From Colwellia sp. (GTDB lineage: Bacteria > Pseudomonadota > Gammaproteobacteria > Enterobacterales > Alteromonadaceae), in NCBI RefSeq assembly GCF_013214175.1, contig NZ_JABSPA010000002.1, positions 1,054,001 to 1,118,000 on the forward strand: a DNA stretch of 64,000 bases, in the 5' to 3' direction. The notes beneath the pieces were generated by a model that saw only the letters and a program-made list of their open reading frames with translations, did no database searches and was not told the DNA's origin. The position numbers were made by a program, and so were the translations under genes. Below are positions 15,338 to 25,991 of the stretch, in pieces (positions within the stretch are counted from its first letter, which is position 1; each line of letters begins with the position of its first letter).

Positions 15338-16255
15338 ATGATAAAAAATAAAAGATCACGCTCTATTTTTATAAACATCTCAATGCAATTGTTACTGTTA
15401 TTTACTCAGCCGTTACTGGCCACCGTTTATGATATAGGTAGTGTTAACAAGCGCCTGATTGGTCAACCTAAAGTTCATATAGTAGTCAAGGGTGATTATT
15501 TTCAGCAACTGGCAGAGCAATATGATGTTGGCTTTTTAGCTTTACTTGCGGCGAACCCACAGCATGACCCATTTTTACTTCAAATTGGTACCGAAGTCGT
15601 TATTCCCAACGAAATGTTATTACCCTTCATTACTCGTCAAGGCATAGTGATAAATCTACCAGAATTACGTTTATACTACTTTTCTCTTGATGGGAATAAA
15701 GTCCATGTTTTTCCTGTCGGGATAGGGCGACAGGGCCTATCAACCCCGTTAACTAGTACTGTTATTGGTGAGAAGAGAAAGGATCCTACTTGGCGGCCAA
15801 CCAAAGAGATGCAAGATCGTTACTTTGCTGAGCATGGCAAGTATTTAGCTAAAGAAGTTGCCGCCGGGCCTAATAATCCTTTTGGTAAATATGCCTTACG
15901 TTTAGGCACCAGTGAATACCTAATTCATGGTTCGAATAAGCGCTTTGGTATAGGTATGCGGGCAAGCTCTGGCTGTATAAGATTATATGATGATGATATA
16001 AAATGGCTTTTTGATCATGTACCACTAAATACTAAAGTGAGAGTGATTAACCAACCAGTAAAAATGTCCTATGAAAATGGTGACAAGCAATTAATAGAAA
16101 TACATCAGCCGTTAACCGATCTTGAATCAAGCAAAGGCAATGTCATTGTAACCAAGGCAATGCAGCGATTTGTCGGCACCAATCGGGAGTACTGGCAGCA
16201 ATTATTACCTATTATTGAAAAACCTCATGGTTTAGTGGTTGAACTCTCCAAGTAA
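15338..16255 (+). CDS. L,D-transpeptidase with LysM domain (ErfK/YbiS/YcfS type)
   Basis: 305 residues. The order is signal peptide (cut near LLATVYD), a LysM-like peptidoglycan-binding module (about 45-92, VKGDYFQQLAEQYDVGFLALLAANP) and a YkuD catalytic domain with HGSNKRFGIG and SSGCIRL; the catalytic Cys is residue 213. Such enzymes either cross-link peptidoglycan 3-3 or attach Lpp-type lipoproteins to it. An Lpp-like gene lies just across the shared terminator in convergent orientation, which favours the Lpp-attaching role. It starts 8 bp after ygiF stops, so it is probably cotranscribed. Confidence 0.9.
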   Translation: MIKNKRSRSIFINISMQLLLLFTQPLLATVYDIGSVNKRLIGQPKVHIVVKGDYFQQLAEQYDVGFLALLAANPQHDPFLLQIGTEVVIPNEMLLPFITRQGIVINLPELRLYYFSLDGNKVHVFPVGIGRQGLSTPLTSTVIGEKRKDPTWRPTKEMQDRYFAEHGKYLAKEVAAGPNNPFGKYALRLGTSEYLIHGSNKRFGIGMRASSGCIRLYDDDIKWLFDHVPLNTKVRVINQPVKMSYENGDKQLIEIHQPLTDLESSKGNVIVTKAMQRFVGTNREYWQQLLPIIEKPHGLVVELSK

Positions 16256-16291
16256 GCAGTAATTTTAGTGACGAATAAACAATAAAATCTG

Positions 16292-16329
16292 GACAACAAA
16301 AAAGCACCAGGAGGTGCTTTTTTGTTGTC
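16292..16329. terminator. Bidirectional rho-independent terminator
   Basis: Perfect 17-bp stem (16292-16308 with 16313-16329) closed by a 4-nt loop, with A and T runs inside the stem. It serves the convergent L,D-transpeptidase and Lpp genes. Confidence 0.93.
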
Positions 16330-16361
16330 TTTTACTTGTTGAGTTAACTCAACGCTAACTA

Positions 16362-16619
16362 TTATTTCTTATAAGAAGCAACAACATTATCAATACGCTC
16401 GTTAGCGGCTTTAGCATCGCTTGCTGCTTGCTCTGCTGCATCTTTAGCTGCTTGTGTATCGCTTGCCATTGATTTTTGCTGAGCTTCTAAATCAGCAACT
16501 TGGGCTGATAAGGCATCAACCTTATTGTTTAATGAGCTAATGTTAGCATCAAGTGCATCAGTGTTTGCGCAAGCCGAAAGTGTTAAGGCGAAAGAAATTG
16601 CGGTGATTTGTTTTAACAT
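16362..16619 (-). CDS. lpp: Lpp-type murein lipoprotein
   Basis: 85 residues. A lipoprotein signal with lipobox LSAC gives a mature N-terminal Cys17, followed by a continuous heptad coiled coil (NISSLNNKVDALSAQVADL...) and a C-terminus ...VVASYKK. Braun-type lipoprotein trimers tether the outer membrane to peptidoglycan through the C-terminal lysine. The final Lys-Lys keeps that attachment point. The middle is rich in Ala/Asp (AAKDAAEQAASDAKAANERID), as in Vibrio/Shewanella homologues. The gene is short, bounded by a strong terminator and probably highly expressed. Naming rests on size, lipobox, heptads and C-terminal Lys. Confidence 0.85.
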   Translation of the reverse strand: MLKQITAISFALTLSACANTDALDANISSLNNKVDALSAQVADLEAQQKSMASDTQAAKDAAEQAASDAKAANERIDNVVASYKK

Positions 16620-16737
16620 AATGATATCCCAAGTGAAGTTATTATTAGATTCCGTTCATTGCAGTATGGCACAAAAAAAAACTTTAACAAAGCAGTTACA
16701 TCTTGAGGTAAGTTATTGATCTCAGACATTGAAATCA

Positions 16738-17076
16738 CTATTTATTTTCGTCGGTATTGCCTAAGTTAATATGCGTGACTAAATCATCCATCAGTCTCTT
16801 TTTAATGCTGAGCTGATCTTCGGCTGGCAGTTGATATTTTTCTGCGAGAATTTGGTAATCACTAGGGGCAAGACTTACAGTTAAACGTGGACGTTTAGGT
16901 CTTTTATTTATCGGTAAACCCAAGATGTCACGAATTTGATCAGATGGACTTAAACCAGCATCGAGCGCCTGCTTACGGATAGACAATTGGATTTTTTCAT
17001 CCATATCAAAAGCAACTTGCACAGCTTTTATTGCTTTAACTGAGGATTGCCATTTCTCGGGGATTTTTCTCGCCAT
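16738..17076 (-). CDS. Small protein resembling two tandem ribbon-helix-helix units; possible regulator of the PspA block
   Basis: 112 residues, no family I can name. Two segments each look like a ribbon-helix-helix unit, a short beta strand then two helices: residues about 16-52 (VQVAFDMDEKIQLSIRKQA, then LSPSDQIRDILGL) and about 62-100 (RLTVSLAPSDYQILAEKYQL, then SIKKRLMDDLV), joined by a basic linker INKRPKRPR. GGAAG precedes the ATG. It is the last gene of the yjfIJK unit. A single-chain double RHH could bind a palindromic operator, and a repeated palindrome lies in both promoters of this block. That link is inference; the protein could instead be a structural partner. Confidence 0.55.
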   Translation of the reverse strand: MARKIPEKWQSSVKAIKAVQVAFDMDEKIQLSIRKQALDAGLSPSDQIRDILGLPINKRPKRPRLTVSLAPSDYQILAEKYQLPAEDQLSIKKRLMDDLVTHINLGNTDENK

Positions 17077-17122
17077 AGTACTTCCGCTTAATTTTTAGAT
17101 TAACTTCTGCTGAAGTTGTCGA

Positions 17123-17764
17123 TTAACTTGCTGGGTACATATCAATGATATCACTAAGTGGCCTAAATAAAGTTAAGCACACTTCGGTATCACCATCTTG
17201 CCAGACTTCAACATCAACGCCTTTGCTTTGCTCTTCATTATAAAGGCTATATAACTCGAACTGCTCGCCGCTGTCTTTGCCTTCATACGCTGATAAATTT
17301 TCACTGCGGTGATCTTTACGATGAAAAAATCCTACCTTAGCAAAAACACTTTGTTGATATTGCTCACTACTCCACATAGCGGTGATTGCTGAGTCAGATT
17401 TTTTTTCCAGAAAAGCTTGTCCGGGCTCATCAAAAACTTCGGCAAAACGCTCTAAGTCAAACAGTGTTTCGACATCTTCATGTTGAATCTTTAATGAAAG
17501 TTTCAGCTCGGTAATATCATCAACTTCTAGCGATAAAAATATCTCTAGCGCATTAGTGCCGACAAGGGCCCATTCTGTTTGTACCTTGTTTTCAAATTCA
17601 TAGCTATTTACTGCTTTCACTTGAAAGTCTTGCCCACGTAACGACTCAGGTAAAGCAAAGCTGTCGGTGAGTACAATAATATCGCCAACGAGTAGTTGAT
17701 TTACTTCTGTTAACTTTCTCTGCTCATTATTTGATTTGTTAAATATTTTTTTTAAAAAATTCAT
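17123..17764 (-). CDS. yjfK: DUF2491 family protein, YjfK-like
   Basis: About 213 residues from the ATG at 17764, which follows TAGG and gives the family's usual start (MNFLKKIF). The longer frame from 17794 adds 10 residues with no good ribosome-binding site. It is a soluble, acidic, mostly beta protein without catalytic motifs I recognise. In E. coli YjfK is encoded in the yjfIJKLMC operon next to a PspA homologue, the same company as here. Its function is unknown; context suggests a cytoplasmic partner of the PspA-like protein. Confidence 0.78.
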   Translation of the reverse strand: MNFLKKIFNKSNNEQRKLTEVNQLLVGDIIVLTDSFALPESLRGQDFQVKAVNSYEFENKVQTEWALVGTNALEIFLSLEVDDITELKLSLKIQHEDVETLFDLERFAEVFDEPGQAFLEKKSDSAITAMWSSEQYQQSVFAKVGFFHRKDHRSENLSAYEGKDSGEQFELYSLYNEEQSKGVDVEVWQDGDTEVCLTLFRPLSDIIDMYPAS

Positions 17765-17905
17765 CTGATGACCTAACGTAGAATGGGCACTCATCTATAG
17801 CTTCATTAAGTAGCGATAAATAATAGTGCCCATTGGGTATTGTTTATTATGCAAAACATTAAACGCATTACCAGCTAAAAGTTATTAGCTGGCTGACACT
17901 TGATA

Positions 17906-18595
17906 CTATTTTTGCTTAGCTTTCAAACGCTCTAATACTGAATTAGCGCTATTATCTTGTGAACCAATACCTGCTGCTTTTAATTGTGCTTGTAATGAGC
18001 TATCTGAGTCTTCAGATTCAAGTAGTTCAGCAGCTTTCATTCTATCATCAAATTTCTGCTGCTTAGCTTTGATACGCTCAAGTGAATCTTTAGCACTTAA
18101 TAACTTAGAGTTACTTGATGAAAAATTGTCGGTAATTGCTGAAGTCGCTTTTTGTACGCTTTCAGTGGTTTTCACCATAGACAACTGACGTTTGTGCTCT
18201 GCGACTTGGCGCTCACTTTTCTTCACTAATTCTTTTAGACGCTCAGAGTTACCACTAAAGCTATCGTGAGCTTGTTGTTGCTCTGCTAAAGTAGTTTCTA
18301 AGTTAGCAATTTTTTCAGCTACAGCTACGGCTAAAGTCTCATCACCTTTTTCAAGTGCTTGCATTGCATAACCTTCGTGCTCAGTAACTTCGCGAGTTAA
18401 GCGGTCTACTTCACGTTTAGCTGACATTTGCTCAGCCATAACGCCGGTTAAGTCACGTTTTGCTTTAGTCAGGTGATTTTCAGCATCACGAATTTCTTGT
18501 TCAAAAATACGGGTTGCATTGGCATCGATAATCGCTTCACCAGCTTCTGATGCACCGCCGCGAATTGCGGTCATAATTTTTTTAAATATACTCAT
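17906..18595 (-). CDS. yjfJ: PspA/IM30 (ESCRT-III-like) protein, YjfJ type
   Basis: About 229 residues, almost wholly helical coiled coil as in PspA, Vipp1 and IM30, with the N-terminal amphipathic helix MSIFKKIMTAIRGG that lets these proteins bind stressed membranes. The C-terminus (LKAAGIGSQDNSANSVLERLKAKQK) matches YjfJ rather than canonical PspA. The start at 18595 is supported by GGAG 7 nt upstream; the frame from 18607 adds four residues. It forms a tight set with yjfI upstream and yjfK downstream. No pspF, pspB or pspC lies nearby, so control must differ from the classical phage-shock system. Confidence 0.88.
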   Translation of the reverse strand: MSIFKKIMTAIRGGASEAGEAIIDANATRIFEQEIRDAENHLTKAKRDLTGVMAEQMSAKREVDRLTREVTEHEGYAMQALEKGDETLAVAVAEKIANLETTLAEQQQAHDSFSGNSERLKELVKKSERQVAEHKRQLSMVKTTESVQKATSAITDNFSSSNSKLLSAKDSLERIKAKQQKFDDRMKAAELLESEDSDSSLQAQLKAAGIGSQDNSANSVLERLKAKQK

Positions 18596-18657
18596 TATTA
18601 ACTCCACTTCTTTCTAATTAGGGGATAATTTAAGGTGATTCTTAATTAGCTATGTAA

Positions 18658-19071
18658 CTAAAGTAAGTAATCACTCATATCATCTATAACTTCTACGGCA
18701 TTATTACTTAATACCGCTAACTCATGTTCAACATCAAGAAAGCTTGAGCTGATAGATAAAGCACCAAAAACTACATATTTATCACCAATTTTTGAAAATG
18801 ATGATAACGGCATAGGGATATTCATTTCCAACATGCTTTCATGCATAGTATTAATACTTTCGGGTTTTACTTCTTCAACGCCCCATAAGTAGGTAATGCA
18901 AATAATTTGGTCTTCGGTTACCGAGACAAAAACGGGTAATTCTTCACGGCCTAAAATACTAATTTGCAGGACGTCAACTTCGCCAGATATTGGTTGGCAA
19001 TCAAAGCTCATTCCTGTGTCTGAATTATCTGCCAAGCTGTTTAAGTGATCGGCTATAGTATGAATATTCAT
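18658..19071 (-). CDS. yjfI: DUF2170 family protein, YjfI-like
   Basis: About 137 residues from the ATG at 19071 (MNIHTIADHLNSL), preceded by AGGATAGGAAATAC and matching E. coli YjfI length (about 133). The longer frame starting at 19116 begins inside a palindromic repeat and is rejected. Conserved-looking core: VLQISILGREELPVFVSVTEDQIICITYLWG and LEMNIPMPLSSFSKIGDKYVVFGALS. Molecular role unknown; YjfI is regularly encoded with the PspA-like YjfJ. It is the first gene of the yjfI-yjfJ-yjfK-RHH unit, with its own promoter region carrying two palindromes. Confidence 0.8.
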   Translation of the reverse strand: MNIHTIADHLNSLADNSDTGMSFDCQPISGEVDVLQISILGREELPVFVSVTEDQIICITYLWGVEEVKPESINTMHESMLEMNIPMPLSSFSKIGDKYVVFGALSISSSFLDVEHELAVLSNNAVEVIDDMSDYLL

Positions 19072-19110
19072 GTATTTCCTATCCTTCCTTTCTTTAGTGA
19101 AAAAGTTAGA

Positions 19111-19163
19111 TGACATATTATGTCGTCTGAGTTAAATTTAACACCTTGACATATTATGTCAAG
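19111..19163 (-). promoter_or_regulatory. yjfI promoter region with two copies of a palindromic operator
   Basis: GACATATTATGTC at 19112-19124 and CTTGACATATTATGTCAAG at 19145-19163. The second is a perfect 9-bp inverted repeat around one central base. Centres are 36 bp apart. The outer copy contains a minus-strand TTGACA (-35, 19157-19162), with TAAATT (-10 like, 19135-19140) 16 bp away, so a bound protein would cover the promoter. A third copy lies at 23089-23101. Confidence 0.7.
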
Positions 19164-19241
19164 ATGTTTTTATAAACTATTTGTTACTGTCTAGTATTAC
19201 TAAGTTTTATTACTACCTAATTACAATTTGGGCATTTCAGC

Positions 19242-20963
19242 TTAATTCAAGCCTTGTTGATCTTGCCAGGCCTTTTGATGTAACTGATAAATGGTATGAC
19301 TACCTAATATATTAATGCCAATATCTGCTTTGTCTTGGTAGAAATTATTAGGGAAAATAAAAGCCGCTTTTAATATAGCCAAATTTAACCATTGATGCGC
19401 TACCGGCAACTGGCTTAGTTTGTTTAATCTTGTTAATGGGCTCGCACCACGCTTAGCAGCTATGGTCCAACCCCACTCTCCAAAGCTGGGCACATTGTCG
19501 TGATATTGCTCAACATGGGCAAACTTTGCCGCTGCCACTGTCTTACCAATAGCAATAAACGAGTCTTTAGCATGATAAGGGCTGGTTGATTGGATTGCGA
19601 TTAAGCCATCGCCGGCAAGTAATAAATTAAGCCGAGCGTAAAAATTAACCGAATAAAGTTTATTTAGATCAGGGTGACTAGGGTCGGGTAAATCAACAAT
19701 GATGGCATCAAATACCTGCCGATCTTTTAACAAGTCATTAATGGTTATAAAAGCATCCGCACGATAAATAGTGACTCGTTCATCTTGCAAGCTTTGTTCA
19801 TTTAACTGCAATATCTGTCGTGCTAAGCGCGGATTTACTAGTCCATTTGGCTTTTGAAAAATATTAATTAGCTCACTATCTAAGTCGATTAACGTGACAC
19901 TTTTTGGGTTATATTTTAATACATCGCGTAAGGCTAAACCGTCACCGCCGCCAATAATTAATATATTATCATGCCGTGCAGAGCCTGCCATGACAGGGGC
20001 AACCAGGTAATCATGATAAATATGTTCATCAATTGAAGAAAACTGTAAACGACCATTGAGGTAAAAGTTAATAATATTATCTTGGTCAAGCCCCATATGG
20101 CGCTCAGTAAAGGTAAGTTGTTGATAGCGAGTTTTGTCGGTATGCACCACCTTATCTAGGTAGAGCAAACTATTCATTTGATTGAGCCATTGATTACCAT
20201 AGTTAAACATTAAAATAATCACCAAAGCTAATAGGCAATGTAAAGTGACAAATGTTTTGCGCCAATGCAGTCGCTGCCAATAGCGCATAATGAAAAAACC
20301 ACCGGCAATAAGGTTTAAACTAGCGGTTATTGCTGCGGCCTTACTGATATCTATACTGAGTAAAAAGATCACCCAAATAGCAGCGCCAATACCGGCACCG
20401 ACATAGTCTGCACCGTAAATTGTGCCTAAGTTATTGGCAAGATGTTGTTGATGGATATTCTCGCGAATACGAGCAATTAGTGGGATCTCCATACCAATAA
20501 AAAAGCCCAGCAGTGCACCGAAGAAATAAGGGCTATTAAAAGCAAGCCAACTCAATTGTTTAAAAAGCCCACCCTGGGGTTTCATATCGGGTGGCAGAGA
20601 TAACATGTTGGAGATTAGCTCTGGGAATATCTGGGTAATGGCAATTAAGCCGCCAATAATTAAAATGGCAGAGCTGCCGAGTAAGGCAATAATGAGTTCA
20701 AGCCAAACAAAGCCATTAAAAGCGCAGCGGACTTTACGCGCTGCAAATGCACCAAGCCCCATAGACACTATCATCAAACCTATCATGGTATAGATAGTAC
20801 TTTCCATAACACCCAACACTCGGCCCGCGTAATGAGAAAGTAAATACTCATAAATAAGGCCACAACCAGCTAACACGGCCATGGTCAAAATAAGTAAGGT
20901 ATCGTCGAGCAGGTGGGACTTATTTTGGAGTAAAGAGTCTTGAGGTAAAGTGTTTTGTGACAT
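19242..20963 (-). CDS. Membrane-anchored aminopropyltransferase (spermidine synthase fold)
   Basis: 573 residues. The first 260 or so form about seven membrane helices, beginning LLILTMAVLAGCGLIYEYLLSHYAGRVLG. The rest is a SpeE-type domain with the nucleotide-binding GGGDG (in ILIIGGGDGLALRDVLKY), TLIDLDSEL and the catalytic-region IVDLPDPSHPDLNKLYSVNFY. Known relatives transfer aminopropyl groups from decarboxylated AdoMet to amines; membrane-fused forms are common in bacteria but little studied. Within a PspA block it may modify a polyamine or envelope molecule at the inner membrane. Whether it makes spermidine, binds polyamines as a sensor, or modifies something else cannot be decided here. 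Confidence 0.85.
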   Translation of the reverse strand: MSQNTLPQDSLLQNKSHLLDDTLLILTMAVLAGCGLIYEYLLSHYAGRVLGVMESTIYTMIGLMIVSMGLGAFAARKVRCAFNGFVWLELIIALLGSSAILIIGGLIAITQIFPELISNMLSLPPDMKPQGGLFKQLSWLAFNSPYFFGALLGFFIGMEIPLIARIRENIHQQHLANNLGTIYGADYVGAGIGAAIWVIFLLSIDISKAAAITASLNLIAGGFFIMRYWQRLHWRKTFVTLHCLLALVIILMFNYGNQWLNQMNSLLYLDKVVHTDKTRYQQLTFTERHMGLDQDNIINFYLNGRLQFSSIDEHIYHDYLVAPVMAGSARHDNILIIGGGDGLALRDVLKYNPKSVTLIDLDSELINIFQKPNGLVNPRLARQILQLNEQSLQDERVTIYRADAFITINDLLKDRQVFDAIIVDLPDPSHPDLNKLYSVNFYARLNLLLAGDGLIAIQSTSPYHAKDSFIAIGKTVAAAKFAHVEQYHDNVPSFGEWGWTIAAKRGASPLTRLNKLSQLPVAHQWLNLAILKAAFIFPNNFYQDKADIGINILGSHTIYQLHQKAWQDQQGLN

Positions 20964-21022
20964 ATTGGTTTTAGTTTCAGAGGAGAGGGAGGTTTAGGGC
21001 AGTGTTTACGTTAATTTTGGCA

Positions 21023-21060
21023 AATCACCATCAACTTTCACTAGAAAATTGATGGTGATT
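21023..21060 (-). other. Intercistronic hairpin between the DUF350 and aminopropyltransferase genes
   Basis: Perfect 12-bp stem (21023-21034 with 21049-21060), 14-nt loop and no U-run on the minus strand. It lies within the probable operon, so it may act as an mRNA processing or stability element or a weak attenuator. Confidence 0.5.
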
Positions 21061-21071
21061 CAATCATGTTG

Positions 21072-21974
21072 TTATGCCATCAGCGCGGTTAAGATCAAAG
21101 CGATAGCAATACTGGTGGCCATTTCAATACTGGCGACACCGATATTATGTTGTTGATCAACTTCCTCAACTAAATCAATACCCCAAAGCACAATGCGTTT
21201 AGCTATTGCGGTAAGTATTGCGACAAGTAAAGTCATTACTACGCCAAACACTAACCAACCTATTAAATTAACTACTAAGGTTTCAGGGCTATAGATAAGG
21301 AAATGGCTGGCTGCAGTTACTGCTAATGCGGTGCTGATCACTTGGCCACTATAGCGAATTGCTAGGGCAAGCTGGCCATTACTTAGTGCTTCTTGCAAAC
21401 AATCTTCTTGGTTGTTTTTCGCATATTGTTTTTCTCTAAGTCGGGTGACAAGAACTAACATGGTTTGTGCAACAATAAAGCCGCTGGTGATGGCAATGAA
21501 TGTGCTTAGGTCTAAGCCATCAACCCAGAGTAATACTGCGCGAATAACAATGGCGGTCGCTATCGCACCAGCGGCATCAATAATGCCTATGGTGAGATTT
21601 TTTTCAATAATTAATGCATTTTTATCTATATGCTGCAGCGCCACTTTATCATGGATAACACGGCCCACTTTTATTAATATTAAGCCATAGCCGCCGTATG
21701 CCAACATGCCAATGGCTTCCATAGCGTAGCTACTTGCGGCTTCTCCGGTTATGGCACCGGTAAGGACAATACCTAAGGCTAAGACACTACCAGCAACACT
21801 GATGCCAAAGGCGAAGTTGTCTTCTGTTGCTAGCTCTTCAGTACTATTAACTTTCGCGCTAATTCCAGAAAGGAAGCGCATAGCCCCTAATAACAAGATG
21901 GCAATGGAAACGTCGATGGCTAAATAAATAAGTAAATCTTGATTAACACCAACGAGCTCGATGAATGTGTTCAT
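21072..21974 (-). CDS. yjfL: Membrane protein with two DUF350 repeats (YjfL-like)
   Basis: 300 residues and about eight membrane helices in two similar halves: each half has a long hydrophobic pair, then a loop with a charged turn (SGISAKVNSTEELATEDNFAFGISVAGSVLALGIVL in the first, LREKQYAKNNQEDCLQEALSNGQLALAIRYSGQVISTALAV in the second). E. coli YjfL has one such unit of about 132 residues, so this is the duplicated form. Function unknown. Genes of this family occur with PspA-like proteins and polyamine-related enzymes, as here, which suggests an inner-membrane component of the same system. Confidence 0.8.
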   Translation of the reverse strand: MNTFIELVGVNQDLLIYLAIDVSIAILLLGAMRFLSGISAKVNSTEELATEDNFAFGISVAGSVLALGIVLTGAITGEAASSYAMEAIGMLAYGGYGLILIKVGRVIHDKVALQHIDKNALIIEKNLTIGIIDAAGAIATAIVIRAVLLWVDGLDLSTFIAITSGFIVAQTMLVLVTRLREKQYAKNNQEDCLQEALSNGQLALAIRYSGQVISTALAVTAASHFLIYSPETLVVNLIGWLVFGVVMTLLVAILTAIAKRIVLWGIDLVEEVDQQHNIGVASIEMATSIAIALILTALMA

Positions 21975-22016
21975 AATTTTGTTGTTCCTATTCTTTTCAT
22001 ATTAACGACTTATTCA

Positions 22017-23003
22017 CTATTTCCCGCGTCTAAAGCCGCGTGAGGTGTTGGTGTTTGAATTTCTAAAGCTTGAGTTTTTACTTTTCGACTTGCTGGCATA
22101 ACTACTTTTCTTAACCGCATTCGTGCGAAAGCGGTTGGCACTTGTTTGAGCGGTTTTGCTTTGGCTAGATAAACTCGATGATCCCGTTCTATTTTTACTG
22201 TAGGGACTGGTAAATTTTTGCCCGCTGCGGCTAAATGATTTCTTCGTGCGAGTATCAAGTGAGTTTTGTTTTTTTAATTGTCCAGGAGAGCTGTAGCGTG
22301 TTCTGCCGTAATCATTGTAATAGCTGTAGTTACGGCTTCTACCCCAATCATTATAAGAGGTAGTTCGACCAAATACGTTGCCCATCATTGAATACATGCC
22401 ATACCAAGCCCAAAAAGACATACCATTACTACCGGTTTGCCAGTTACCATAACTTGGATTGCCAATTAATTGCTCACCAGTACCGAAGTCTTGGGCATTA
22501 TTGGCACGCTGGCTTTGTGCTTTTGATAATGAATTAATGCGCGGCAATTGGCCATCTGACATGTCCGCTAAAACATTAAGCGGATCACTTAAGGCGTCAG
22601 AATAGAGTACCGGATCTGCCGCTTGGTAAATATTAAGTAATTCATTATAAAGTGCCTGCGAAGAGTCAAACATTTGTGGTTGATTCTTGGCAGTGTTCAC
22701 CCTATCCAATAGCGCTTTATACATAGGACCATCGATAGAAGCATCTTTGCGAAACTCGTTAATCAATGGGGTTAAGTGGGCTTTATTAACCTGAACCTTA
22801 TCAGCATATTGGTTAATTAAATTAGCATTGCGAATTTGGCCATTGCTTAAGGCATCACCTAACTGAGCGACTCTTTGTTCAGTGATAGGTAGTTGCTGTT
22901 CGATTTGCGCTTTCACGGGATCGCCACAACCAAAAAGGCTAAGGCTGGTAATTGTGATCAAGAGCAATAAAAAAGGTGTTTTTAGTAAGTGCATTTCTGC
23001 CAT
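22017..23003 (-). CDS. Secretory lipoprotein with low-complexity basic C-terminus (PspA block)
   Basis: About 328 residues. The lipoprotein signal peptide has lipobox LFGC. A helical domain follows (about 30-170), then an aromatic and Gly/Asn-rich stretch (MSFWAWYGMYSMMGNVFG), then a very basic Ser/Arg/Lys/Asn/Thr tail from about 235 to the end. The tail is tract-like (SKSKSKNSSFRNSNTNTSRGFRRGK). It recalls the SFW-rich region and Ser/Arg tail of DUF1190 lipoproteins (YjfM/YgiB) but is not clearly the same family. GAGGAG lies directly before two ATG codons; I chose the second. It is probably the first gene of the block, its promoter region shared with glnE and carrying the palindrome. Confidence 0.65.
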   Translation of the reverse strand: MAEMHLLKTPFLLLLITITSLSLFGCGDPVKAQIEQQLPITEQRVAQLGDALSNGQIRNANLINQYADKVQVNKAHLTPLINEFRKDASIDGPMYKALLDRVNTAKNQPQMFDSSQALYNELLNIYQAADPVLYSDALSDPLNVLADMSDGQLPRINSLSKAQSQRANNAQDFGTGEQLIGNPSYGNWQTGSNGMSFWAWYGMYSMMGNVFGRTTSYNDWGRSRNYSYYNDYGRTRYSSPGQLKKQNSLDTRTKKSFSRSGQKFTSPYSKNRTGSSSLSSQSKTAQTSANRFRTNAVKKSSYASKSKSKNSSFRNSNTNTSRGFRRGK

Positions 23004-23088
23004 CATCTCCTCAAAAATGCTATGTTATCGAAATAGTTAATTAAATTTAGCGATAAATCATAGGCAAGTGTCAATTAATACCATTAAC

Positions 23089-23101
23089 GACATATTATGT
23101 C
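23089..23101. promoter_or_regulatory. Third copy of the PspA-block palindrome, lipoprotein / glnE intergenic region
   Basis: GACATATTATGTC, identical to the 13-bp core upstream of yjfI. It lies about 15 bp upstream of a minus-strand TTGACA (23069-23074) that could serve the lipoprotein gene, and 31 bp before the preferred GTG of glnE. Confidence 0.65.
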
Positions 23102-23132
23102 TATAGGCAACGCTGCTTATGTAGGAATTCTT

Positions 23133-25991
23133 GTGACCTTACCCTTTTCCCCGCTCTTAAAGCAACAACAAACAACAAGTTGGCAACACTTTATTGAACA
23201 ACACTCTCAAGTATCTGCTGAGTTAAGCCAAGAGCAGTTGAGCGCGTTTAAACAAGCTATAACCATAAGTGACTATATTTTTTCTAGTGCTTTACAAGCA
23301 CCTGAGTTGGTAATAGAAATTTTTAAAACGGCTAACGAAGATGTTTTACCAGATTATAAGCAGCTTTTACTTGCCCAATTAGCCGATTGTGTTGATGAAG
23401 CACAATTACATCGCATACTCAGACGTTTTCGCTTACAGCAAATGGTCAGGATAGCCCTTGATGATATGGTGTTTAATATCAGTTTAGATACCTCACTAGC
23501 GCGATTGTCATCTTTGGCCGATGAGCTTATATTAGCGAGCTTGCAGTGGCTGACTGATTTTTGTCGACAGAAGTGGGGTATACCTACCAATGAAAAGGGC
23601 GAACAGCAGATCTTACTGGTTTATGGTATGGGTAAGCTGGGCGGAAAAGAGCTAAATTTCTCTTCCGATATCGATCTTATTTTTACTTATCCTGAATGTG
23701 GTGCAACCCAGGGTTGTCGTCGCAGCATAGATAACCAACAATTTTTTACTCGGTTGGCACAAAAGTTAATAGCCTCATTGCACCAAATCACCTGTGATGG
23801 TTTTGTCTATCGCGTTGATATGCGTTTGCGTCCTTTTGGTGACAGTGGTCCACTGGTATTAACGTTTAATGCCATGGAAGATTATTACCAAGAGCAAGGG
23901 CGAGATTGGGAGCGATACGCCATGCTAAAGGCTAGAGTTATCGGTCAGTCTAAATATCACCAAGAATTATCAAGTATGCTCAGGCCCTTTGTTTATCGTC
24001 GCTATATCGATTTTAGTGTTATCGATAGTTTACGCCGTATGAAAATGATGATTGCTCAAGAAGTTCGCCGAAAGCAGCTAGTCAATAATATTAAGCTAGG
24101 GGCGGGCGGTATTCGTGAAGTTGAGTTTATTGTGCAAGTTTTCCAACTAATTCGCGGCGGACGGGTTAAGGAGTTACAGCAACGCAGTTTATTAACAGTG
24201 TTACCGAAATTAGTGTTGTCAGGGGAGATTACTGACACCAGCAAACAAGTACTTGAAAATGCTTATCGCTTTTTACGGCGTGTGGAAAATATTATTCAAG
24301 CCATTGCCGATAAACAAACACAAACCTTACCGGATAATGAGCTTGACCAACAGCGACTGCTCGCGGTACTTGCCATTGACAGTTGGCCTGAATTTCTATC
24401 TCTACTAGCCAAACATATGGAAGCGGTGCATCAAGAATTCGATTTACTTATTGGTCTTGATAGTCCTAATCATCAAGCACCCGATGAGCATTGGGTTACA
24501 CTTTGGCATAGCCGTTGGAGTGATGAAGAGTCTATTGCTTGGTTGGATCAAGAGGCTCTCGGCTGGCAAAGTGAAAAAGTTTGGCAAACATTAAGTGCTT
24601 TTCGAGAAGATATTGGTAAACGCAGTTTAGGTAATCGTGGCCGACAGGTTTTAGATAAACTAATCCCATTGCTTTTATGTCGACTGCAAAAAAATGTCGA
24701 TGCCGGGCAGGTATTAGCGCGGGTACTGCAAGTTTTTAGTAAAATAGTCACCCGTACCGCTTATCTAGAATTGCTCTTTGAAAATGATGGCGCCTTAAAG
24801 CAACTTATTCATTTATGCCAAGCAAGTAGCTGGGTAGCTGATTATATTGCCAAATACCCAATATTACTTGATGAGCTTATTGATCCTGAATTACTGCATA
24901 ATCCGCCTCAGCTTTGTACTTATGCGGTGGAGTTACGCGAGCGCATGCTGCGAATTCCAGAGGAAGATCTTGAAGCGCAAATGGAGTCGCTACGTCAATT
25001 TAAACAATCGCAGCAATTACGTATTGCTGCGGCTGAAATTGCTGATGTATTACCTGTCGGTAAAGTTAGTGAGCATTTAACCGCTTTGGCCGAAGCGATA
25101 TTATCTGAGGTGATTAACCTTGCTTGGCAGCATGTTAATGAACGCTTTGGTGTGCCAAATTCATGTTTAGGTGGTGCCAAGGAAAAAGGTTTTGGCGTTA
25201 TTGCTTACGGTAAAACCGGTGGCGTTGAACTTGGTTACAGTTCAGACTTAGATTTAGTGTTTGTACATCATAGTGAGCCCGATGAAGTGACTAGTGGTAG
25301 GGCCGATGGTAGTAAGTCGGTACCAGCAAGCCAGTTTTATATGAAGTTAGCACAACGCATTATGCATCTATTTAATACTCGTATGAATAGTGGCATATTG
25401 TATGAGTTAGATATGCGCCTAAGGCCATCAGGTAACTCAGGAGTGCTGGTGGTACATCTAGCTACTTTTGCCCAATATCAAGATGAAGATGCTTGGACTT
25501 GGGAACATCAAGCCTTAGTAAGAGCCCGAATGATTTTCGGTAATGATAAGCTGCAGCAGCAATTCATCGCTATTCGACAAGCTGTATTATCAAAACCCAG
25601 AGAGCTAACTGAGCTTAAAAGCGAAATTATTAGTATGCGGGAAAAAATGCGCAGTCACCTAGATAACTCCACTGAATTACAGTTTGATATTAAGCAGGGC
25701 AAGGGCGGTTTAGTTGATATTGAATTCATTGCCCAGTTTTTAGTGCTCGCTCATGCCAAGCAATATCCTGAATTGATGTTAGCTTGTGATAACTTAGGCA
25801 TATTTAAATTACTGCTCAAGTTTGCTTTACTTAAAAAAGTCGAACAGAAACTGCTTGGCGATATGTATCAAAAGCTGAGAGCGCTAGGGCATCAAGCAAC
25901 CATGGAAAGTGCAGGGCATTTAATTAATAGACAAAACGTCACTGGGCAAGCTGCTATTAGTGATATTTGGCAAAACCGTTTGGTTGATTAA
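23133..25991 (+). CDS. glnE: Bifunctional glutamine synthetase adenylyltransferase/deadenylase GlnE
   Basis: Controls glutamine synthetase by adding or removing AMP under direction of PII. It has two nucleotidyltransferase domains, each with the family signature: GMGKLGGKELNFSSDIDLIF in the N-terminal (deadenylase) half and AYGKTGGVELGYSSDLDLVF in the C-terminal (adenylyltransferase) half; each is followed by its RVDMRLRPFGDSGPLV or ELDMRLRPSGNSGVLV segment. About 952 residues from the GTG at 23133, which has TAGGA upstream and aligns with the E. coli start. The ATG at 23097 lies inside the palindrome and has no ribosome-binding site. It is separated from ygiF, its usual partner. Confidence 0.95.
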   Translation: MTLPFSPLLKQQQTTSWQHFIEQHSQVSAELSQEQLSAFKQAITISDYIFSSALQAPELVIEIFKTANEDVLPDYKQLLLAQLADCVDEAQLHRILRRFRLQQMVRIALDDMVFNISLDTSLARLSSLADELILASLQWLTDFCRQKWGIPTNEKGEQQILLVYGMGKLGGKELNFSSDIDLIFTYPECGATQGCRRSIDNQQFFTRLAQKLIASLHQITCDGFVYRVDMRLRPFGDSGPLVLTFNAMEDYYQEQGRDWERYAMLKARVIGQSKYHQELSSMLRPFVYRRYIDFSVIDSLRRMKMMIAQEVRRKQLVNNIKLGAGGIREVEFIVQVFQLIRGGRVKELQQRSLLTVLPKLVLSGEITDTSKQVLENAYRFLRRVENIIQAIADKQTQTLPDNELDQQRLLAVLAIDSWPEFLSLLAKHMEAVHQEFDLLIGLDSPNHQAPDEHWVTLWHSRWSDEESIAWLDQEALGWQSEKVWQTLSAFREDIGKRSLGNRGRQVLDKLIPLLLCRLQKNVDAGQVLARVLQVFSKIVTRTAYLELLFENDGALKQLIHLCQASSWVADYIAKYPILLDELIDPELLHNPPQLCTYAVELRERMLRIPEEDLEAQMESLRQFKQSQQLRIAAAEIADVLPVGKVSEHLTALAEAILSEVINLAWQHVNERFGVPNSCLGGAKEKGFGVIAYGKTGGVELGYSSDLDLVFVHHSEPDEVTSGRADGSKSVPASQFYMKLAQRIMHLFNTRMNSGILYELDMRLRPSGNSGVLVVHLATFAQYQDEDAWTWEHQALVRARMIFGNDKLQQQFIAIRQAVLSKPRELTELKSEIISMREKMRSHLDNSTELQFDIKQGKGGLVDIEFIAQFLVLAHAKQYPELMLACDNLGIFKLLLKFALLKKVEQKLLGDMYQKLRALGHQATMESAGHLINRQNVTGQAAISDIWQNRLVD

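Follow-up and report, generated by a model that had tools for sequence, protein, structure and literature searches.

A DUF2170-PspA gene block of Colwellia as the probable control unit of a membrane-maintenance regulon under a predicted tandem ribbon-helix-helix autorepressor

The second type of CesT/Tir-PspA operon described by Ravi et al. 2024 (PMC11237479; example AAN56744–AAN56747) is the closest described relative of the locus studied here, a block of seven minus-strand genes (16738–23006) in a stretch of 64,000 nucleotides from a Colwellia species (contig NZ_JABSPA010000002.1; "the window" below means this whole stretch). According to that paper, the operon combines a CesT/Tir(DUF2170)-PspA pair with a SpeE domain fused to seven transmembrane (TM) segments, an 8TM DUF350 protein, a lipoprotein, a DUF4178 protein, and sometimes a final ribbon-helix-helix (RHH) protein. 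The Colwellia block contains all of these: the DUF2170-PspA dyad, SpeE with a TM region, DUF350, the lipoprotein, DUF4178, and the optional final RHH. Because this operon has been described, the gene order is not new, although the original prediction for this DNA had called the arrangement distinct. What differs here is the link from the RHH gene to a palindrome and a genome-wide set of promoters. On evidence that is computational throughout, the block is very probably the control unit of a membrane-maintenance regulon under a tandem-RHH autorepressor. We also consider it likely that this is a global regulator of inner-membrane upkeep in Gammaproteobacteria, in which the tandem-RHH repressor, acting on GACATAWTATGTC and perhaps switched by DUF2170, joins two PspA operons, the flotillin, stomatin-NfeD, and prohibitin genes, HtpX, a YidC-like insertase, Na+/H+ antiporters, and up to three carbonic anhydrase families, by repression in a manner akin to sigma-W. 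The main text of PMC11237479 contains neither "operator" nor "palindrome", and "regulon" occurs there in the references only. In the open-licence PMC literature, no description of the palindrome 15-mers or of an RHH-PspA link was found among the papers listed, and a description elsewhere is possible. Thus, as far as these searches go, the gene block is known and the operator and regulon are undescribed.

Four other systems share part of this content. The E. coli-type block, the third group of Ravi et al., shares the DUF2170-PspA dyad and a DUF350 protein; however, it has an ion channel, DUF2491, a single DUF350, DUF1190, and a glutathionylspermidine-synthase-like protein instead of SpeE, DUF4178, the lipoprotein, and RHH. 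We found this block, Pfam-named, in one locus of a genome lacking the RHH gene (L198; G and L numbers denote genomes and loci, and f numbers denote families), and, among the loci listed, the same pattern was recognized by eye in most of 17 loci from RHH-negative genomes. We take the yjf gene names to be those of this E. coli-type block. DUF2491 (YjfK) and the ATP-grasp enzyme YjfC were not found in the Colwellia block, and the idea that the aminopropyltransferase stands in place of E. coli YjfC is not supported: the E. coli-type block is a separate type seen in RHH-negative genomes. In L198 (6848–7132) and similar RHH-negative loci, a small divergent gene (DUF6471 in L198) lies beside this block and may be its own regulator. 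The classical Psp response (PspF-PspA-PspBC) likewise shares a PspA/IM30 protein; however, the Colwellia block has no PspF, PspB, or PspC, and its PspA fails the classical model (TIGR02977, 18.3 bits against a cut-off of 242.95). In the bac operon of Pseudomonas aeruginosa, BacA is a DUF2170 protein, likened to type III secretion chaperones such as ExsC, and BacB is PspA-like; as presented in the excerpts of that report, it shares the dyad and differs in its proposed sigma-54 site, the lack of a spermidine synthase in or around it, and its biofilm phenotype (PMC10948618). Finally, excerpts of a study of Bacillus subtilis report that FloA, FloT, and pspA-ydjGHI share sigma-W, that alkaline shock and stress on the membrane induce this regulon, and that PspA requires the SPFH protein YdjI to be at the membrane (PMC8581546). 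Both sigma-W and the Colwellia regulon join PspA to SPFH/flotillin genes; however, sigma-W is an extracytoplasmic function sigma factor, whereas we propose a repressor and palindrome for Colwellia, and the likeness is one of content, not of descent.

All seven genes that had been joined in the predicted block are present. Read 5' to 3', their order is lipoprotein, double DUF350, SpeE-like, DUF2170, PspA, DUF4178-like, and RHH, as follows in window coordinates:

16738–17076, minus strand: tandem RHH protein, the proposed repressor (112 aa; AlphaFold2 (AF2) model, structural alignment, and palindrome co-occurrence)
17123–17764, minus strand: DUF4178-like beta-rich protein (213 aa; weak Pfam DUF4178 match and homologue matches)
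17906–18595, minus strand: PspA/IM30-family protein of the YjfJ type (229 aa; PF04012, 136.5 bits)
18658–19071, minus strand: DUF2170 (YjfI/BacA) protein (137 aa from the ATG at 19071; PF09938, 126.6 bits)
19242–20963, minus strand: membrane aminopropyltransferase-like (SpeE-like) protein (573 aa; hydrophobic N-terminal region and SpeE domain)
21072–21974, minus strand: double DUF350 membrane protein (300 aa; PF03994 in two stretches)
22017–23006, minus strand: lipoprotein with a basic C-terminal tail (329 aa; LFGC lipobox-like motif and K/R/S-rich tail, by eye)

The shared palindrome that had been noticed in this block, TGACATAWTATGTCA, is real: the window holds one exact copy (19147–19161), one copy with 1 mismatch (19111–19125), and one with 2 mismatches (23088–23102), and 1 of 100 shuffled versions of the window gave as many as three matches at ≤2 mismatches. 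The predicted operators and the promoter associated with them are:

19147–19161, no strand assigned: operator 1, exact TGACATAATATGTCA
19111–19125, no strand assigned: operator 2, CGACATAATATGTCA on the minus strand, at about +1 to +16, with the start point estimated from the -10
23088–23102, no strand assigned: operator 3, ahead of the lipoprotein-DUF350-SpeE unit; mismatched at both outer bases, with an exact core 13-mer
19135–19162 (read 19162–19135), minus strand: promoter TTGACA-16-TAAATT, with TG ahead of the -10 and the -35 on operator 1

A sigma-70 scan of the whole block found 16 matches against a mean of 20.8 in shuffles, which is not above chance; the promoter at operator 1 ranks among the top two (10/12) and is the only one with TG before the -10. 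With one palindrome copy on the -35 and the other apparently over the start point, this is, we infer, the layout of a repressor. For the DUF2170 gene, the start at 19071 is the likelier one, because the upstream ATG at 19116 falls within operator 2.

This anatomy was compared across three nested samples of 98 (family), 247 (order), and 369 (class) genomes, some of which overlap, and across 80 named loci, which were picked by their RHH gene, the best 80 being kept. A single-sequence search found the RHH gene in 44 of the 98 family genomes. In all 44, a pair of operators with ≤2 mismatches each lies ahead of DUF2170 at a spacing of 33–39 bp (35 bp in 21 genomes and 36 bp in 17), and the pair is also present in 80/80 named loci at ≤3 mismatches each. 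In all 38 genomes with the 35- or 36-bp spacing, a T precedes the first copy and gives a perfect TTGACA, and a TGnTAAATT-like -10 downstream of the first copy is best placed at offset 21 in 35 of the 44. From the position of this -10, the second copy would lie at about +1 to +16. A third copy (≤2 mismatches, same distance) precedes the lipoprotein unit in 34/44 genomes. In distant families of the class sample (L405, L406, and L412–L414), the palindromes of the pair are only 15–18 bp apart, before DUF2170 where that gene is in view; the spacing therefore evolves.

The palindrome does not belong to the block alone, as had been supposed; it marks promoters across the genome. The exact 15-mer has 3 copies in the 5.0-Mb Colwellia genome, and the two outside the block lie 97 bp upstream of a YqiJ-flotillin operon and 79 bp upstream of a prohibitin-like SPFH gene. 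Copies with one mismatch in the same genome lie upstream of a Bax1-I/YccA-like gene, an Mrp antiporter operon, and a beta-carbonic anhydrase gene. The RHH-positive genomes of the family sample contain at least 254 core sites, and 42 distal exact 15-mers are spread over 27 of these 44 genomes, with none in the RHH-negative genomes. The distal set comprised all 42 of these together with 39 further 13-mer loci from part of the genomes, 11 listed distal sites lying outside the set; distal or operon-proximal status was assigned by hand from the coordinates, and L215 was excluded from the counts over 86 sites. An open reading frame (ORF) of ≥90 aa lies no more than 300 bp downstream of 81 of these 86 core sites, compared with 30% of random positions in the same loci, and no core site falls inside such an ORF (random, 73%).

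The first genes behind these promoters were NfeD with SPFH (18), a second PspA (11), YqiJ-flotillin (10), SPFH/prohibitin (8), NhaA (8), an HtpX-type M48 protease (4), Yip1 (3), a YidC-like protein (2), alpha- and delta-carbonic anhydrases (2 each), and Mrp (1), the names being Pfam-supported on one representative each. A gene of these target groups occurs within 1.3 kb downstream of 69 of the 81 promoters by script, or 70 when the L241 carbonic anhydrase is added by hand; the script scored three NhaA loci as SPFH, since an SPFH gene follows NhaA there. The second PspA lies under the palindrome in 11 fetched loci of other RHH-positive genomes and is reached in 7 of them via a gene of about 100 aa directly ahead of it. 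An Lrp-type gene adjoins NhaA under the operator in 6/8 loci and adjoins Mrp both in the Colwellia genome (one mismatch) and in L228. The alpha- and delta-carbonic anhydrases carry the exact core, and the beta type carries it in the Colwellia genome with one mismatch; because three unrelated families carry the palindrome, function rather than gene appears to be kept. Flotillin of the type found in the Colwellia genome (G000) occurs in 6 RHH-positive and 8 RHH-negative genomes, with the core upstream in 4/6 and 0/8, respectively. As an independent line of evidence, the target list points to one physiological unit in Gram-negative bacteria that comprises PspA, SPFH scaffolds, HtpX, and the control of Na+/H+ or pH. 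In L224, L227, and L237, an SPFH gene immediately follows NhaA under the palindrome, an arrangement that suggests an SPFH partner for this antiporter.

The placement of the distal sites bears on the sign of regulation. At 46 of the 81 distal sites (class A), TTGACA runs across the operator edge; among the remaining 35, TATTAT has the orientation of a -10 at 29 and the opposite one at 6 (p 1e-4). It is unlikely that the RHH protein is an activator at the palindrome sites: the sign is not provable from position, and the class A distal sites lack a strong -10, as activator-dependent promoters can do; however, operator 1 overlaps a perfect -35, operator 2 lies over the estimated start of an extended -10 promoter, and the distal operators overlap a -35 or a -10.

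The palindrome and the RHH gene were found together in all three samples. In the family sample, the exact 15-mer occurs in 36/44 RHH-positive and 0/54 RHH-negative genomes and the 13-mer core in 44/44 and 1/54 (G026), respectively, with 2 matches to a reversed-pattern control in the 98 genomes; counted by genus, the core is present in 25/25 RHH-positive and 1/27 RHH-negative. G026 is the only such genome in the family sample, and its locus L215 has two 13-mer copies 8.5 kb apart with flanking genes unlike the other targets. DUF2170 occurs in 78/98 family genomes, 34 of the 54 RHH-negative ones included, so it is RHH that the palindrome accompanies, not the PspA dyad. In the order sample, RHH was present in 77/247 genomes, and the core in 61/77 RHH-positive and 13/170 RHH-negative genomes (17 sites, against 3 sites for the reversed control). 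In the class sample, RHH was present in 13/369 genomes and the core in 9/13 and 4/356, respectively, the reversed control matching in 9 genomes. In the genomes sampled, GACATAWTATGTC is thus paired at the apparent DUF2170-PspA-DUF4178-RHH promoter and nearly confined to genomes with the RHH gene.

The block genes also occur together, as had been proposed. The lipoprotein, DUF350, DUF2170, PspA, and RHH are present in 44/44 RHH-positive family genomes and in 80/80 named loci, the latter chosen by RHH, and are accompanied by DUF4178 (44 genomes and 78 loci) and a SpeE-like gene (43 genomes and 75 loci). A tblastn search of 20 selected RHH loci from other families found DUF2170 with RHH more often (19) than PspA (17), DUF4178 (16), DUF350 (7), or SpeE (5). 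The palindrome and RHH stay together despite changed operon content: there is no SpeE at the locus in f11 (with a variant form of the palindrome) and f12, and no DUF4178 but a flotillin in f7. In the f7 genome G213 (L384), an operon DUF2170-PspA-RHH-x-flotillin lies downstream of a palindrome pair, and in the f17 genome G113 (L381), where the upstream end lies outside the sequence, YqiJ- and flotillin-like genes come after RHH. These two loci are a different packaging of the same regulon. RHH-negative loci L202 and L214 likewise hold DUF2170-PspA-YqiJ-flotillin within one operon, and the linkage made by the operon in some genomes is made by the operator in Colwellia.

The small double RHH-like protein of the original prediction is borne out with moderate confidence, since the AF2 model of the 112-aa protein has the strand-helix-helix unit twice (pLDDT 69.8, pTM 0.55). 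In structural alignment with VIA-align, its best-placed counterparts were an F-plasmid relaxosome chain (Z 7.3), permuted single-chain Arc (6.7), AvtR (6.0), DndE (5.4), and CopG (4.8). We take the relaxosome entry to be TraY. TraY and AvtR are tandem RHH proteins, and the model, like these two and the permuted single-chain Arc, appears to have two strand-helix-helix units per chain; it differs from them in sharing only about 10–15% identity and in their other biological roles. The closest named relatives of the protein are from Colwellia (best 98%). Five residues within or beside the first predicted strand (A18, Q20, A22, F23, and D24) are the same in all 14 members while identity falls to 36%, as would be expected if the operator is fixed.

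Several observations weigh against the proposed regulon or its repressor. Regarding the protein, Foldseek returned nothing significant for the model (best E 0.66); confidence in the model is only moderate, and a common arrangement by itself can yield a VIA Z of about 7; and among 14 members searched against Pfam, one reached RHH_1 (E 0.027) and four reached NikA-like families (best 0.003), all marginal. Regarding the distribution, the co-occurrence of RHH and palindrome is partly a given, because one operon carries both the RHH gene and the operator pair; the sampled genomes are related by descent, and RHH absence in the family sample comes from a single-sequence search. All 16 RHH-positive genomes of the order sample that lack the exact core belong to f11 (16 of its 17 RHH-positive genomes); readable variant operators, such as TGACATATAATGACA and GACATTAAATGTC, stand at the same two places in 5/7 of the f11 loci fetched. 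A further 4/13 RHH-positive genomes of the class sample lack the core, and the third site is missing before the lipoprotein unit in 10/44 family genomes. Among the targets, 11 or 12 of the 81 promoters fall outside any membrane theme, and the -10 matches at class A distal sites are no better than in shuffled sequence. At individual loci, L378 and L383 hold DUF2170 and RHH with no PspA match at the locus (tblastn), and L382 (G119) holds RHH with DUF4178 only, with no DUF2170, PspA, or palindrome pair beside it. Another contig of G119 (C6:129797) carries a palindrome pair with a spacing of 36 bp.

A different, unlinked regulator could recognize the palindrome, with the RHH protein a passenger of the operon or acting elsewhere. 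The weak call of the RHH fold by sequence leaves room for this, as does the core site in 13/170 RHH-negative genomes of the order sample, where G202 (88% complete) has 4 sites and the reversed control has 3 in total. However, the palindrome and RHH occur together in the three nested samples and across changed operon content, and strand-1 residues A18, Q20, A22, and F23 stay invariant at an identity as low as 36%, which makes an unlinked regulator quite improbable.

Under the proposed tandem-RHH repression, the RHH protein would bind GACATAWTATGTC, probably as two chains per palindrome, and would cover the -35, the -10, or the start site of its targets, its own promoter included. Inner-membrane stress would lift this repression, and derepression would then supply PspA along with its anchoring SPFH scaffolds, the protease HtpX and an insertase against damaged membrane proteins, and ion and pH transport guarding the proton gradient. 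How the signal might arrive is more speculative. It is possible, although doubtful, that DUF2170 serves as the anti-repressor: PspA moving to the damaged membrane would free DUF2170, which would then capture the RHH repressor, like a partner switch of the ExsC type. Loci L378 and L383 would agree with a pairing of DUF2170 and RHH; they do not fit the PspA step unless those genomes encode PspA at another place. The part of the original idea that sees here an envelope-stress unit equipped with a palindrome and a small regulatory protein is supported, and the control of a YjfJ-type PspA without PspF now has a named operator and a candidate repressor. The regulon also gives the SpeE-like, DUF350, DUF4178, and lipoprotein genes a testable role, and these results suggest that a palindrome-based switch, so far unrecognized, governs membrane upkeep across many marine bacteria.

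The other half of the original idea, a self-contained envelope-stress and polyamine system whose aminopropyltransferase makes a membrane polyamine, fares less well. The SpeE-like protein matches Spermine_synth (105 bits) and, over nearly its full length, the polyamine aminopropyltransferase model NF002956 (600 bits, cut-off 472), with six hydrophobic segments ahead of residue 260. Its GGGDG (at 338) and DLPDP (at 424) line up with solved spermidine synthases, in which we take GGGDG to be the donor-binding motif and D-x-x-DP the catalytic one. These motifs are intact in at least 42 of the 43 aligned proteins, and the conservation of the gene in 43 of 44 RHH-positive family genomes would also fit a polyamine enzyme. 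In the textbook pathway to spermidine, the aminopropyl donor is supplied by S-adenosylmethionine (AdoMet) decarboxylase. The Colwellia genome has a match to this decarboxylase; however, 26 of the 43 SpeE-carrying genomes have no match to PF02675, a single Pfam model whose silence is not proof of absence, and the polyamine reading is weakened because of this. The few SpeE genes at the other-family RHH loci (5/20, against 19 for DUF2170; selected loci, the loci only) also argue against it, and we regard a self-contained polyamine system as rather improbable. Either the SpeE-like enzyme uses another donor, or a decarboxylase type missed by PF02675 is present, or the enzyme makes no spermidine; a simple polyamine enzyme role was set aside on the same decarboxylase count.

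That the inverted repeats are RNA hairpins, acting as terminators or attenuators, is extremely improbable: they are perfect, one copy lies near the transcript start, and two scored as terminator-like on the plus strand, but one central base between the arms is too little for a normal hairpin loop and operator 1 overlaps the untranscribed -35.

The remaining block proteins were assigned as follows. DUF2170, a CesT/Tir-like chaperone according to PMC11237479, has a solved relative (8q8o, E 6e-7). The protein at 17123–17764, labelled YjfK in the original prediction, has no DUF2491 match at E 0.1 and is instead DUF4178-like: its own match is weak (17.2 bits, below the cut-off of 25), and 23/27 aligned homologues match DUF4178 at E ≤0.1 (best 7e-6). 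Its AF2 model is confident (pLDDT 88.3) and consists mainly of strands; it had no match in the PDB at E ≤0.001, and the attempt to read a function from the fold was dropped. The lipoprotein had no above-cut-off Pfam family; it has a single hydrophobic segment, at the N-terminus, and the basic tail that had been predicted for it is there. An RNA element was considered for 16000–23500 and discarded, with no Rfam match at the gathering score. The Colwellia genome has three PspA_IM30 genes. The earlier statement that pspF, pspB, and pspC are lacking is correct for the block but not for the genome, where a sigma-54 activator, PspA, and a PspC-domain gene stand together (L023:5268–8067). The third PspA lies beside a PspC-domain gene (L024:6909–7943), and neither of these two loci has a palindrome copy at ≤2 mismatches. 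In the window, a gene for an Lpp/OprI-type alanine-zipper lipoprotein (16362–16619) adjoins the RHH gene, with a homologue in 16/44 RHH-positive loci, and a terminator-like hairpin lies just past it.

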